Source: Alienimonas chondri (lineage in GTDB: Bacteria > Planctomycetota > Planctomycetia > Planctomycetales > Planctomycetaceae). Taken from it: a stretch of DNA of 42,040 bases. The notes beneath the pieces are model-generated. The model was given only the letters and a program-made list of their open reading frames with translations. It was not told the DNA's origin and did not search any database. The position numbers and the translations under genes were made by a program. This document shows positions 14,378-22,311 of this stretch, piece after piece (positions within the stretch are counted from its first letter, which is position 1; each line of letters begins with the position of its first letter). Location: positions 1-42,040 of the forward strand of contig NZ_WTPX01000026.1 of NCBI RefSeq assembly GCF_013036045.1, given 5' to 3'.

Positions 14378-15067
14378 TCAGGCCCGCCGCGCCCGCCACT
14401 TCACAACCAGCCACCGCGTAACCGGGTAGCTCACCAGCGCGCACGCCGTGCCGACCACCACCGAGCCGATCAACATCGGCCAGCCGACCCGCAACACCAG
14501 CCCCTTCACGGTGGTCCACCACTCCGACAGGCTCTCGTATTCCAGGACGGCCGCGAGTTCGGACTTCGTCAGGTCGCCGTGCATGAACAGCGTGCCGACT
14601 TCGTAGTCGAACCAGTATATCGCCAGCATCGTCAGGGGATTTGAGATATACACCGTGACCAGCGACGCCTTCACGTTGAAGTTGAAGAACGGCTTGCACA
14701 GGTAATAAAATCCCACCACCAGCATCATCTGGACGCCCACCGTCGGCGTCATTCCCCAAAAAAAGCCCACGGCGACGCCCATCGCGATTTGATGCGGCGT
14801 GTCGTCGAGGCCGAGGATGTAGTTCAGCAGCGTCCGCGGGCTGCTCCACCATCGCAGCTTCTGCTCCGTCGGGGCGGATTCCGCGGGAGGATCGTCGGAG
14901 GAGACGGGCGCCGCGTCTTCGTCGGGGATCAGTCCGTGAGGGGGGGCGAGTTCTCCCGGCGGAATCGGGGGCGCCGGATGATGGGCGACGGAGGCAGACG
15001 TCGACGCGGGCGGGGCGGACCGATCCTCCCGATGCCCGGCGGAAGTGCGGGGAGCCGGGGCGGTCAT
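14378..15067 (-). CDS. DUF2062 membrane protein
   Basis: 229 residues from ATG 15067 (MTAPAPRTSAGH); frames extending further upstream are Arg/Pro-rich and lack support. The first 80 residues are Pro/Ala/Ser-rich and probably disordered and cytosolic. The DUF2062 domain follows: LLNYILGLDDTPHQIAMGV, FFWGMTPTVGVQMML, a membrane segment VVGFYYLCKPFFNF, and the conserved YISNPLTMLAIYWFDYEVG. A last membrane segment is near VGWPMLIGSVVVGTACALVS. Function is unknown; the DUF2062-like TIGR03546 protein at 21763-22311 is a distant relative in the same window. Divergent from the FGE-like lipoprotein gene. Confidence 0.88.
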   Translation of the reverse strand: MTAPAPRTSAGHREDRSAPPASTSASVAHHPAPPIPPGELAPPHGLIPDEDAAPVSSDDPPAESAPTEQKLRWWSSPRTLLNYILGLDDTPHQIAMGVAVGFFWGMTPTVGVQMMLVVGFYYLCKPFFNFNVKASLVTVYISNPLTMLAIYWFDYEVGTLFMHGDLTKSELAAVLEYESLSEWWTTVKGLVLRVGWPMLIGSVVVGTACALVSYPVTRWLVVKWRARRA

Positions 15068-15375
15068 GAGCACGGGGGAGCCTGTCGGAACGGACGGCAC
15101 GGGAAGGGGAGTGCCGTGGGAGCCCGCAGGCGGGGCGTCGAACCGTCGGCGGGCGGCGGAAGACGAGGGGCAACCGGGGCGGCGGACGATTCTAACGCCT
15201 GTCCGGCTCCCCGACGCCCTTCGATCGCCGCTTTGCCCGCGGACGACCCCGACGCGTACGATGGCGCCGGCGCCACCTGCACCGAAGCCGCCCCGGCATC
15301 GATTCAAACGGCGCTCGACGGATCACCCCGTCGCCGTCGCCCGATGCGACCGGCCCCCGTTCATTTTCTTCCCAG
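15068..15375. other. 308-bp divergent intergenic region
   Basis: Lies between the starts of the DUF2062 gene (minus) and the FGE-like gene (plus) and must contain both promoters. I see no convincing promoter, repeat, RNA or short gene. Open frames here are Arg/Pro-rich in both directions. Confidence 0.45.
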
Positions 15376-18738: not shown

Positions 18739-18760
18739 CCGTTCTCTTCAGGAGAGCGGC
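18738..18760. terminator. Small hairpin over the convergent stop codons
   Basis: GCCGTTCTC (18738-18746) pairs with GAGAGCGGC (18752-18760) with one G-T pair and a 5-base loop. It overlaps the stop codons of the ABC-F gene and the DnaA-like gene, which are 10 bases apart. No T-tract, so termination is only suggested. Confidence 0.35.
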
Positions 18761-19905
18761 GAACGTCTCCGCAGCTCCCGACGCACGGCGGCGACATGGC
18801 CGCGGAATGCGGCGTCCTTCTTCTCGCGTTCTTCGAATCGCTTAAGAGCGTACATGACGGTGCCGTGATCGCTGCGGCCGAAGTGCTTGGCGACGGCGGC
18901 GAGCGACTCGCCGGTCAACTCACGACACAACGCCATCCCCGCTTGGCGGGCCGGGACGACCGTCGCGCTGCGCCCCGGGCGTCGCAATTGATCGACCGAC
19001 AGGCCGAACCGCCCCGCGACCGCCCGGCTCACGGTTCCCAGCGACAGCGGCGGAACGTCCGCGACGGCATCCGCTCGGCCAGCCGCGAGCGCCGCGGCGA
19101 TCTCCGCCGTCCAACCGCTCGTCCCCGCGGCGCGGGCCAATTCGCCCATCCGGTCCGCGATCGATTCCAGCTCCCGCACGGAGGTTCCGGCGAGGTCGGC
19201 GGTCAACGTTCGCAGGGCGGCCGGAGTCGCCCTCGCTCGCCGATGTTCCGCGAACCGGCGGAGTAACTCGCTCGCAGACTCCCTCGCGGGAGTCGCGACG
19301 CTCGCGCAGACTCCCCCGCGGAGACGGTCGATGAGTCGAGGGGAGACAGCCGGGAGTTCGCCCGGCAGGCACGGCCCGGTGAGCGCCGCCCGTCCGCCGG
19401 ATCGCTCGACGGCGTCCAACGCGGCGATCAACAGATCCTGAGTCTTCGGCTTCGCACGCACCCCGGCGAGATCCTCGACGATCAGCAATCTTGCCTCCAG
19501 CAGATCCTCCCGCAGCGGCCCGGGGAAGCCGCCGACGAGCGCTTCGTCCAGCGCCGCGGCGAGTCCGGCGCCGGTGAACCGTACGACGCCGGCCGCTTTT
19601 CGCTCGACCGCGGTGCGGGCGCCGCCGGTCGCGCGATCCAGACGCAGGAGTTCGTCGATCAATCGAGTCTTCCCGCACCCCGCGGGACCGTGCAGATAGA
19701 GCCGCGGACCGGGTGGCAGGGCGTCCGGGGACTCTCCGTCCCGCGGTGGGACGAAGTCGGCCAGCGCCCGCACCGCGGCGAGGGCGGCGGCGTTCTCCGG
19801 GATCTCCACCAGCGGCGCCGGGCCGCGGTCGGTGACGGCCGTCGTGCCCGGTCCGCGCAGAGCCGGAGCAAACGGGGAGGCGCCGGCGTCGCGCGCGTCC
19901 GCCAT
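18748..19905 (-). CDS. DnaA-like AAA+ ATPase with DNA-binding domain IV, lacking domain I
   Basis: 385 residues from ATG 19905 (MADARDAGAS), chosen because GGGAG lies 8 bases upstream. There is no DnaA domain I; about 35 residues precede the AAA+ domain. Walker A is GPAGCGKT (73-80), Walker B LLIVEDL (140-146, usual DnaA form ends in Asp-Asp), and the sensor region reads GPCLPGELPAVSPRLIDRL (177-195). Domain IV (about 289-360) contains LTGESLAAVAKHFGRSDHGT then VMYALKRF, clearly related to the DnaA box-binding signature RDHTTVLHA. It may be the replication initiator or, more likely given its reduced length and its operon with envelope genes, a DnaA/Hda paralogue. No DnaA-box cluster was seen beside it. 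The upstream TIGR03545 frame overlaps its coding sequence in another frame. Confidence 0.85.
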   Translation of the reverse strand: MADARDAGASPFAPALRGPGTTAVTDRGPAPLVEIPENAAALAAVRALADFVPPRDGESPDALPPGPRLYLHGPAGCGKTRLIDELLRLDRATGGARTAVERKAAGVVRFTGAGLAAALDEALVGGFPGPLREDLLEARLLIVEDLAGVRAKPKTQDLLIAALDAVERSGGRAALTGPCLPGELPAVSPRLIDRLRGGVCASVATPARESASELLRRFAEHRRARATPAALRTLTADLAGTSVRELESIADRMGELARAAGTSGWTAEIAAALAAGRADAVADVPPLSLGTVSRAVAGRFGLSVDQLRRPGRSATVVPARQAGMALCRELTGESLAAVAKHFGRSDHGTVMYALKRFEEREKKDAAFRGHVAAVRRELRRRSPLS

Positions 19906-21766
19906 CGTCAGTCTCCCGGTTGGCCGGATCAAGATCGGCCGGCTGGCGGCCGGGTGGCCGGCGATCGGCCGGCATGCGGGCGGCCGTGCGTTCAATCCGG
20001 CCGCGCCCGCCGTCCAGCCGCTCGGCGAGCGTCGCGACGCGGTGTAGCCCGTCGGTCGCTTCGCCCCATCGTTCGGACAGGTCTGCAAGGAACCGGGCTT
20101 CAGCCGCGTCGGCCTCGGCGAGCGCCGCCTTCGCCTGGTCGGCGACCGTTCGCTCCGCTTCAAGTTCAAGGGCGGCGATCAATCGCGGTCCGTCGTCCGT
20201 CTCCAGTCGCCAGTCCGGCCGCGACGCGAGACCGGACAGTCGTAGCGAACCGCTGAGGCCCCCCAACTCCGCCGCCGCTTGATTCACCGCGTTCGCCAGG
20301 GCGCCGCGGCCCCCATCGTTTCCACCCCGGCCCAATCGACCGGCGAGCCGCAGATCGACGGCGCCGTCCAACGCCGTGTCGGCGCCGCGGCCGGTCAGCC
20401 GGAGGCGTGCGGTCCAACTCAAGGAGGCCGGTTCATCGTCTGTCGGTCCGACGATCGGAATCGGCACGGATTCCACGATCGCATTCGCCCCATCGGGAAC
20501 CGTGGCGTCGACCCGCAGATCGACGTGCGTCACCGGCTCCCCGACGGAGGCGTCGTGGGTGAAGGAGAGTCTGAATCGCGGTCCCTGGACGGCCCGCGGA
20601 TCGGCGAGGGCGGTGAACGAACCGGCGATGGGCGAGCCGTACAGGGCGGGGGCGTCGGTGAGGCCGGTCAGCGTGCCGGCGAACGGGATCGGGCCGGCGG
20701 ACGTCGGCAGCGAACCGGTGACGGCGAGGTTCTCCAGCAGCACGTTCGGCCGCGGGGCGGTCGCCGGGAAGGGAATGCGCATGCCGCGACGCGGCGGCCG
20801 GGCGAGGAGGTGCGTGTCCGGCTCCGTGAGGCGTCCCCGCATCCAGCGGGTGAGCGCCAACGTCGCGGCGAGCCGCTGGGAGAGCGCCGGCCCGAGCAAC
20901 GCCCGCGAAGCGGCGTCGGAGTCCATGGTCGCAGTCTCGGGGAGGGTCCGCAGGCGGGCCGCGTCGCGAGCCCTCGCGGCGGCGAGGGCGATGCGATCCT
21001 CACCGGCCCGGGCAGCGAGGGCGGGCAGCACGCTCCGCAATCGATCCGCGTCTGCTTCCAGCGCCGCGGCGTCGGTCGTCACGTCCGCGACGACTTGCAG
21101 GCGAGCGAGCCCGCTCGGCTCCCGTTCGGCCGCATTGAGGCGGTCGGAGAGCGCCGCGGATCGCCGGTCGAGCGCCGCGCCGCGGGCGGTCAGGTCGTCC
21201 AGCCGATCCGCCCACTCCCCCCGCAATTGTCGGGCGAGACGCACGGTTTCCGACGCCTCGGTCTGCGGGGCGTCGGCGAGGAGGTCCGAAAGCGTCCCCA
21301 ACGCGCCGCGGCCGTCCCGCAATCCGTCGCAGATCGGCATCAGGTCCGACGCCGCGAGCAGCAAACCCGGCAAGGAGTCGCCCCGATCCGCGGGATGCGC
21401 GCGGGAGGATCCGAACGTCAGCCCGGTCAGCGAGCCGGCGGTGACGTGCGAGCGGCCGCGGAGCAGTTCGTTCGCATCGAGATCCGCGGTGAACCGCTCG
21501 AACGCGAGCAGGTTGCGCCCCGGCTGATCCGCGGCCGGCAGGGCGAATCCTCGGACGTCGAGGCGGGGGGGAAACAGGCCGGTTCGCACCGCGGCCAGGT
21601 CCGGCTGCACGCCGGTCGCGCGGCTCAGGGAATCCACCGCGGCGGTGCGGAGCAGGGGATCGAAGCCGAACGCCAGAAACGCCCACAGCCCCGCCGCCAG
21701 CAGGACGCGGGTCAACAGATTACGGCGATTGAGCAGCGGCACGGGGGGGGAAGACGGCGTGCTCAT
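18920..21766 (-). CDS. TIGR03545 family protein (3' end abnormal: frame runs through the DnaA-like gene)
   Basis: The start ATG 21766 overlaps the TIGR03546 stop (ATGA) and begins MSTPSSPPVPLLNRRNLLTR followed by one membrane segment (VLLAAGLWAFLAFGF). An AsmA-like part follows (LRTAAVDSLSRATGV, FTADLDANELLRG, SLTGLTFGSSR), then coiled-coil segments (about 150-260) and a beta-rich region. Credible protein continues to about residue 600 (RVATLAERLDGGRG near 19990-20045). After that the frame has no stop until 18920 but becomes Arg/Gly-rich, as expected of an out-of-frame reading of the DnaA-like gene. The natural length would be about 600-620 residues; 948 is therefore suspicious. The family is of unknown function, envelope-associated, and regularly paired with TIGR03546. 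Confidence 0.75.
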   Translation of the reverse strand: MSTPSSPPVPLLNRRNLLTRVLLAAGLWAFLAFGFDPLLRTAAVDSLSRATGVQPDLAAVRTGLFPPRLDVRGFALPAADQPGRNLLAFERFTADLDANELLRGRSHVTAGSLTGLTFGSSRAHPADRGDSLPGLLLAASDLMPICDGLRDGRGALGTLSDLLADAPQTEASETVRLARQLRGEWADRLDDLTARGAALDRRSAALSDRLNAAEREPSGLARLQVVADVTTDAAALEADADRLRSVLPALAARAGEDRIALAAARARDAARLRTLPETATMDSDAASRALLGPALSQRLAATLALTRWMRGRLTEPDTHLLARPPRRGMRIPFPATAPRPNVLLENLAVTGSLPTSAGPIPFAGTLTGLTDAPALYGSPIAGSFTALADPRAVQGPRFRLSFTHDASVGEPVTHVDLRVDATVPDGANAIVESVPIPIVGPTDDEPASLSWTARLRLTGRGADTALDGAVDLRLAGRLGRGGNDGGRGALANAVNQAAAELGGLSGSLRLSGLASRPDWRLETDDGPRLIAALELEAERTVADQAKAALAEADAAEARFLADLSERWGEATDGLHRVATLAERLDGGRGRIERTAARMPADRRPPGRQPADLDPANRETDDGGRARRRRLPVCSGSARTGHDGRHRPRPGAAGGDPGERRRPRRGAGAGRLRPTAGRRVPGRPATRSAALSARSRGVREDSIDRRTPASGSRDRRRPHRGRAKSGRRRTVHRRRTRRGAGRSARRRLPRAAAGGSAGGKIADRRGSRRGACEAEDSGSVDRRVGRRRAIRRTGGAHRAVPAGRTPGCLPSTHRPSPRGSLRERRDSREGVCERVTPPVRGTSASEGDSGRPANVDRRPRRNLRAGAGIDRGPDGRIGPRRGDERLDGGDRRGARGWPSGCRRGRSAAVAGNREPGGRGAVRPVGRSIATPGAQRDGRPGPPSGDGVVS

Positions 21767-22311
21767 GGCGACTCCCCCATGAGGCGACCGGCGGCCGGGA
21801 CCGCGCCCGACGGTCGACCGAAGCGGGTGTTCGTCCACCACGCGGCGATCGGCGCCGCCCAGGCCCGATGCGCCGCGAGCGTCCCGCGATGCAGCGGCCA
21901 GGCCGCGAGAGCGCCGCCCAGCAGGGCCGCGATTGTCACCGTGTTGTCCCACCCCGACCACGCCCCGCCGGGCAGGGCGAGCAACGCCGCGAAGGTGCCG
22001 TGCAACGGCTCGGCCGTCAGCAGGGCGAGGCCGAACCGGTGCAGAAACGGGTCCAGCAACGGGACGAGCGCCGCGGCGACCAGCGCCGCCCACGCCGCGG
22101 CGGCGAGGTTCAAACGGGTCACGGCGATCGCCAATCCCAACACGCAGGTGGTGGCGTTCTCCTTGGGCAGCAGACCGAACCAGAACCCCAGCGCGACGCC
22201 CCGGGCCGCTTCCTCCGCGGTTCCCCCGCACGCGGCTTCCAGCGCCGAGCGCAACGGGCCGGCCCATGCGGCGCAGGGCAGCCGGGTCGAAGAGACAGGC
22301 GGCGACGACAC
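21763..22311 (-). CDS. TIGR03546 family membrane protein (DUF2062-related)
   Basis: 182 residues from GTG 22311. Key segments are AARGVALGFWFGLLPKENAT, TCVLGLAIAVTRLNLAAAAW, LVAAALVPLLDPFLHRFGLA and WSGWDNTVTIAALLGG, giving about four membrane segments and the GLLPKxN motif of the TIGR03546 family. The 4-base ATGA overlap with the TIGR03545 gene indicates translational coupling, and the pairing of these two families supports both identifications. Function unknown; probably an inner-membrane partner of TIGR03545. Confidence 0.82.
   Translation of the reverse strand: MSSPPVSSTRLPCAAWAGPLRSALEAACGGTAEEAARGVALGFWFGLLPKENATTCVLGLAIAVTRLNLAAAAWAALVAAALVPLLDPFLHRFGLALLTAEPLHGTFAALLALPGGAWSGWDNTVTIAALLGGALAAWPLHRGTLAAHRAWAAPIAAWWTNTRFGRPSGAVPAAGRLMGESP

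Follow-up and report, generated by a model that had tools for sequence, protein, structure and literature searches.

A short DnaA paralogue without domain I, widespread in the class Planctomycetia and often encoded directly before dnaN

DnaA is usually regarded as a single protein that binds DnaA boxes, melts DNA and recruits helicase. The window analysed here, a 42,040-nt stretch of the Alienimonas chondri genome, encodes a short DnaA (DnaA-S; Table 1), and the question is what such a protein does in the cell. An earlier note had described it as a DnaA paralogue with an AAA+ core and domain IV and without domain I, encoded behind two envelope genes with a good ribosome site, and had proposed a link to envelope growth among its possible roles. 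The description of the gene was borne out; the envelope link was not. We observed by computation the gene, its motifs, its distribution, its position and an origin-like element. The reading that we prefer, with a probability of about 0.48, is that DnaA-S may bind the origin as a DnaA subunit without melting DNA or loading helicase itself, and would act by co-assembly with a full-length DnaA (DnaA-L), either promoting or restraining initiation.

Table 1. Features of the DnaA-S locus, in window coordinates
Feature	Position	Strand	Details
DnaA-S, short DnaA paralogue without domain I/II	18748..19905	(-)	385 aa; ATG at 19905, stop end 18748
AAA+ domain III of DnaA-S	19065..19800	(-)	aa about 36-280; motifs, predicted fold
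Domain IV of DnaA-S, DnaA-box-binding helix-turn-helix	18763..19041	(-)	aa 289-381; Pfam, fold
Ribosome-binding site GGGAG	19913..19917	(-)	7 nt 5' of DnaA-S ATG; read from sequence
TIGR03545-like envelope gene	18920..21766	(-)	open frame; coding end between about 19970 and 19820
TIGR03546-like (DUF2062) membrane protein gene	21763..22311	(-)	182 aa, GTG start; profile match

Profile searches with DnaA-S gave a clear match to Pfam Bac_DnaA_C (65.8 bits, cut-off 31.5) and a weak one, still above threshold, to the AAA+ profile Bac_DnaA (24.4 bits, cut-off 23). The score against TIGR00362 was 118.5 bits, below the curated cut-off of 343.9. We observed that the AAA+ module retains Walker A (GPAGCGKT), Walker B (ED), the arginine finger and sensor II, and that all core residues compared are in place (G177, K178, D236, R285 and R334, E. 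coli numbering). In domain IV, R399, D433 and H434 are present and T435 is replaced by G. The predicted structure (mean pLDDT 84.3, pTM 0.65) begins with a stretch of pLDDT below 50 (residues 1-28), followed by the AAA+ module and domain IV. Its closest PDB structure was B. subtilis DnaA in the origin-opening complex (8btg; E 4.4e-17, TM 0.54-0.62), and this TM range indicates that the domains are placed differently relative to each other in the model. Hda and DnaA-S are both short DnaA homologues without domain I. Hda lacks domain IV. We rejected identity with Hda, because DnaA-S has domain IV and scored 24.3 bits against TIGR03420 (cut-off 194.8).

The window genome (G000; 355 contigs, 97% complete) contains a second DnaA on contig C303. 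It is full length and carries domain I, which rules out the window gene as the sole DnaA and agrees with the note's view of it as a paralogue. This DnaA-L scored 285.9 bits against TIGR00362, also below 343.9. A GNAT acetyltransferase-like gene, named by eye, adjoins the long dnaA in both G000 (locus L001) and G012 (L056).

To compare the two forms, we counted residues over 41 short, 34 long, 25 dnaN-linked and 20 other DnaAs. Domain I serves helicase recruitment and dimerisation. A profile of it, trained iteratively from the DnaA-L of the window genome, matched 0/41 short and 34/34 long proteins; among DnaAs of other classes it matched 22/25 dnaN-linked and 19/20 others. The short DnaAs retain the P-loop lysine K178 (41/41), the arginine finger R285 (39/41) and sensor II R334 (33/41), together with R399 (41/41) and H434 (37/41) in domain IV. 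D269 was retained in just 3/41. With DNA-binding and ATPase motifs kept and domain I absent, the earlier claim that the protein binds DNA and cannot load helicase appears sound as far as the known loading route goes.

The roles of the compared residues in E. coli are those that we take to be established, apart from V211 and R245. These two residues of E. coli DnaA are named in the available portion of PMC5835720. B. subtilis positions were converted to E. coli numbers by a shift of +21, which we verified at R264 (R285) and against 8btg. According to the accessible text of PMC10721633, alanine at N187, I190, I193, R202 or E228 of B. subtilis DnaA causes a severe growth defect. The short DnaAs have lost most of this DnaA-trio (ssDNA) pocket. 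N187 was found in 0/41 short, 26/34 long and 25/25 linked proteins, R202 in 13/41, 34/34 and 24/25, E228 in 12/41, 34/34 and 25/25, and E183 in 4/41, 33/34 and 24/25. The window protein has A/A/D/L/R/L at B. subtilis positions 183/187/190/193/202/228 and K at 222, so that only 193 (L for I), 202 and 222 are kept or similar.

The following observations count against co-assembly. The same paper, in the part seen, states that what is general in this pocket is the character of its residues; none of them is universal. DnaA-L is itself altered: the I190 position is T in 16/34 long DnaAs, and the box VII arginine R281 is E in 33/34 and D in 1/34. These changes mean that the function of DnaA-L, too, is deduced rather than given. 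The charge reversal at R281 also occurs in five long DnaAs sampled from genera without the short form, and all linked DnaAs (25/25) have R.

As queries for a survey of 150 genomes of the order, we used the window protein and a 22-protein short-DnaA alignment. Every genome has at least one DnaA, and a short DnaA was found in at least 112/150, a count that includes G010 and G144 and a few fragments (G063, G144). Thirty-two of the 38 remaining genomes were searched again (G030, G093, G100, G135, G138 and G146 were left out), and none of these 32 contained a short DnaA. In 31 of them we found one DnaA frame of 482-684 aa, and in G097 a 267-aa piece. By genus, the genomes without a short DnaA fall into g11 (n = 8), g13 (n = 3), g19 (n = 16), g27 (n = 3) and g48 (n = 1), in which no member seen has one; G123 (g46) also lacks it and its sister G111 has it. 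These 31 genomes of five genera with a long DnaA only suggest that DnaA-S is dispensable in some lineages, which argues against co-assembly. At class level (69 genomes), the short form also occurs in families f57, f58, f59, f60, f62, f64, f65 and f66. The f64 and f65 proteins have longer frames (448 and 436 aa), still without a domain-I match. The dnaN-linked DnaAs sampled from other classes are full length (25/25 rows at least 445 aa). DnaA-S is thus a short paralogue found across the class Planctomycetia.

The same survey bears on the envelope genes. In the window, DnaA-S is directly preceded, on the same strand, by a TIGR03546-like and then a TIGR03545-like gene; these scored 67.1 bits (curated cut-off 79.45) and 78.2 bits (curated cut-off 173.35), as relatives and not as certified members of these families. 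No stop closes the TIGR03545-like frame ahead of the dnaA start: it runs on to 18920 and overlaps most of the DnaA-S gene. The GC content by codon position changes phase between about 19970 and 19820, and in the sister species (G023) the corresponding frame ends just before the short dnaA start. Length differences near the end of the gene (window 19890-20000) keep the window frame open, out of phase. The missing stop may be a real change or an assembly error. A second protein resembling DUF2062/TIGR03546, named by eye, lies about 6 kb away (14378-15307, (-)), in G023 too.

The idea that a DnaA-like regulator ties replication and envelope growth together by way of the TIGR03546/TIGR03545 pair draws on the identical order of TIGR03546, TIGR03545 and short dnaA in both genomes of the genus (the window genome and G023) and on the plausibility of co-transcription. 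TIGR03545 was found in 83/150 genomes of the order. It is commoner where the short DnaA is absent (31/38) than where it is present (52/112), and the two genes lie side by side in only 2/52 genomes holding both. They are more than 1 Mb apart in 10 one-contig genomes and on different contigs in 40/52, where a contig end may cut the neighbourhood. Outside the genus the neighbourhood is therefore not conserved, and dnaN is the commonest neighbour found. We rejected envelope coupling beyond the genus on these counts and regard the idea as a whole as highly improbable. The membrane-protein neighbours of DnaA-S look like a local accident.

We then asked where the short gene usually lies. In 51/112 genomes, from 22 genera, dnaN follows it directly on the same strand, with 296-1162 bp between the matched stretches. 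The two genes share a contig at a distance in 9 genomes and lie on different contigs in 50, and no dnaN was listed in 2. Among the 50, 22 are certainly separate, since the contig continues for more than 3 kb past the short gene; 10 have the gene at the start of a contig, and 18 stayed unassigned. This leaves 82 judged genomes, 51 adjacent and 31 not; the latter 31 count against co-assembly.

We also examined GC skew. In G012, which has the order short dnaA - dnaN - DUF721/DciA-like - gyrB (the last two by eye), the best skew switch of 20 samples fell at the short dnaA-dnaN locus (25/500 shuffles as good). In G023, the skew origin was placed at 1.30-1.40 Mb (40 samples; 2/500 shuffles as good). 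dnaN lies near it, at 1.58 Mb, still ahead of DciA-like and gyrB-like genes, and the short gene (base 1) and the long gene (3.82 Mb) lie far from it. The skew of G061 gave no usable signal (321/500 shuffles as good), which counts against co-assembly. In the window's genus, a KaiC-like ATPase gene, named by eye, stands before dnaN (L039 10891-12459 (-); L247). In many other genera, the short dnaA occupies the place of this KaiC-like gene.

These positions bear on the possibility that DnaA-S is mainly a transcription factor, acting for instance at other promoters or in autoregulation of dnaA-dnaN, and is not directly involved in initiation. A gene away from dnaN in 31/82 judged genomes, and far from the origin in the window's genus, would suit that role. 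So would a domain IV that is more alike than the AAA+ module among short DnaAs (0.41 vs 0.34), an order that the long ones share (0.54 vs 0.51). The commonest home of the gene is nevertheless the dnaN locus, and the retained arginine finger (39/41) and sensor II (33/41) point to ATP-dependent oligomers. We consider such a role rather unlikely.

The gap between short dnaA and dnaN contains a GC cluster, CTA-type repeats and AT-rich DNA, an arrangement that matches the DnaA-trio anatomy described in the available text of PMC8287927 and PMC10721633. We examined 24 of the 51 gaps, from 15 genera and with 8 from one genus; where no dnaN start was set, a stretch of 450 bp past the short gene was used, and its far end may already be dnaN. 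A nine-letter trio word, ACTACTACT, was common to 12/24 gaps, compared to at most 4 in 20 base shuffles. A pattern drawn up by eye, a DnaA-trio repeat adjoining a GC cluster as in the origin basal unwinding system (BUS), was found in 22/24 gaps, a count that is not independent evidence. A profile trained on 16 gaps recovered 6/7 untrained gaps at 3/100 shuffles or fewer and missed G085; the 24th gap (G003, a near copy of G002) was left out of this test.

We applied the profile to genomes in which the short gene and dnaN are apart. In both G000 and G023 it matched the DNA before dnaN (0/100 shuffles each), with a single-base difference between the two 24-mers. On either side of the short gene these two genomes gave no profile match (43-76/100), and by profile the BUS-like element is absent from the flanks of the window gene itself (47/100 and 76/100). 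With the element at dnaN and not at the short gene, and the skew origin of G023 near dnaN, we conclude that in the window's genus the short dnaA moved and the origin stayed. The same holds for G001 and G009, where the profile scored 0/100 at dnaN, compared to 34/100 and 93/100 at the short gene. In G033, G015 and G020 the profile scored at neither place, and in G052 and G025 the short-gene side was weakly positive (4/100 and 3/100). The element was thus found at dnaN in only 4/9 tested genomes with the short gene away from dnaN, which counts against co-assembly. In four genomes without a short DnaA (L262, L263, L264 and L265), the profile found no match before dnaN (61-78/100); loss of the short gene may accompany a moved or altered origin there.

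Three further searches were less telling. At 12 long-DnaA loci, 11 gave profile scores reached by 6/40 shuffles or more. The twelfth (L146 566 (-), in G118, which has no short DnaA) scored 12.0 (0/40 shuffles) and may be coding; L145 has a similar word with a lower profile score. A pattern allowing up to three mismatches found 4 sites in 18 genomes, compared to 14 for the reversed control, and within short dnaA-dnaN gaps only those of G061 and G111. The profile succeeds in G023 and G001, both missed by this pattern, which is therefore insensitive. The box TTATCCACA occurred at 101 sites over five genomes without a cluster, and at one site in G023, which speaks against co-assembly. As to boxes next to the trios, only degenerate box-like words were seen, by eye.

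With box binding and ATP-dependent assembly apparently kept and both outputs gone, DnaA-S should act through full-length DnaA. DNA binding by DnaA-S, co-assembly with DnaA-L and any effect on initiation are what we infer from sequence. DnaA-S would bind DnaA boxes at oriC through domain IV and would co-assemble with DnaA-L via the AAA+ interface. DnaA-L, which keeps domain I and the larger part of the trio pocket, would probably open the strands and recruit helicase. DnaA-S could then be a dedicated double-strand anchor that seeds the filament, or a brake that times origin opening by DnaA-L. In the window's genus, its gene relocated to the TIGR03546/TIGR03545 locus while the origin remained before dnaN.

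Two further proposals can be set beside this one. One is a competitive or dominant-negative inhibitor that occupies boxes or caps DnaA-L filaments, as an Hda- or SirA-like brake. Loss of domain I and most of the trio pocket, with box binding, the ATP site and the arginine finger kept, is what an inhibitor would show, and its absence from five genera is compatible with this; a pure inhibitor need not stand before dnaN in 51 genomes, and we judge this proposal somewhat unlikely. The other, for which we would put the chances a little lower still, is a split initiator of Planctomycetia in which DnaA-S would be the double-strand anchor and filament seed and DnaA-L would capture single strands and load helicase, within a mixed oligomer that was later lost in five genera. 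If this were true, these bacteria would start replication with a heteromeric DnaA-S/DnaA-L complex whose subunits divide the work in a way that recalls eukaryotic ORC, and the five genera that lost it would run on one DnaA.

We assessed selection on both genes. In 12 genomes with both forms, the short DnaAs were less alike than the long ones in 66/66 genome pairs, with identities of 0.34 vs 0.51 in the AAA+ module and 0.41 vs 0.54 in domain IV. DnaA-S evolves faster than DnaA-L in the same genomes, which counts against co-assembly. The dN/dS of the short gene in five within-genus pairs was about 0.19 (G000-G023), 0.05, 0.10, 0.14 and 0.06. For the long gene it was 0.07 between G000 and G023, and two other long pairs had saturated dS. 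The short gene is under purifying selection and is less constrained than the long gene in the window's genus.

These rates are relevant to the suggestion that DnaA-S is a disappearing form of the old origin-linked DnaA, kept only for a time while DnaA-L replaces it. The faster evolution, the losses in several genera and the relocation in several genera would fit a relict. Presence across the class, retained ATP-site and DNA-contact residues and a dN/dS of 0.05-0.19 do not, and we hold this suggestion to be improbable.

We also built a quick tree of 121 rows, with no bootstrap. The 41 short proteins formed one clade (SH-aLRT 98). The 34 long proteins formed another (94), joined by two DnaAs of other classes that were not seen beside dnaN (88). 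Short, long and 14/20 of the DnaAs not seen beside dnaN grouped against the linked ones (97). A test on 59 rows, with long branches in play, rejected neither short with linked (p-AU = 0.485) nor short with long (p-AU = 0.495). DnaA-S may be orthologous to the dnaN-linked DnaA of other classes; the sole argument for this is its place before dnaN.

Compared to canonical DnaA (TIGR00362; E. coli, B. subtilis), DnaA-S shares the P-loop, Walker B, arginine finger and sensor II of the AAA+ module and domain IV, and it shares the place before dnaN in 51 genomes with an origin element in 22/24 gaps examined. It differs in lacking domains I and II, in the replacement of most trio pocket residues, and in being encoded alongside a second, full-length DnaA. 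The laboratory deletion of domains I-II in B. subtilis DnaA (residues 104-446) likewise leaves domains III-IV only and, according to the accessible part of PMC10721633, still separates strands, whereas DnaA-S lacks most of the pocket residues needed. Two DnaA genes are also known in the Chlamydiales, likewise of the PVC superphylum: Waddlia has two copies, neither at the skew origin (PMC2878342, in the part available), and DnaA1 and DnaA3 are described in PMC4989314 (likewise in part). We liken these by description; the available portions state no loss of domain I. Among the literature matches listed, with subscription papers mostly outside the scope, no title or abstract mentioned a domain-I-less DnaA in planctomycetes. 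The short dnaA genes themselves are presumably annotated in public records.

Many planctomycetes thus have an origin-adjacent DnaA without the parts for both outputs and a full-length paralogue, encoded elsewhere, that keeps them. The pair raises the question whether the origin can be marked by one protein and opened by another. It also affects how chromosomes are presented. Planctomycete chromosomes have been rotated 'to dnaA' (PMC5177795, PMC12864880, available text), and this is not one convention: many one-contig genomes, including G002, G012 and G061, start at the short dnaA, and the one-contig genome G018 and the first contigs of G249 and G252 (5 contigs each) start near the long dnaA.
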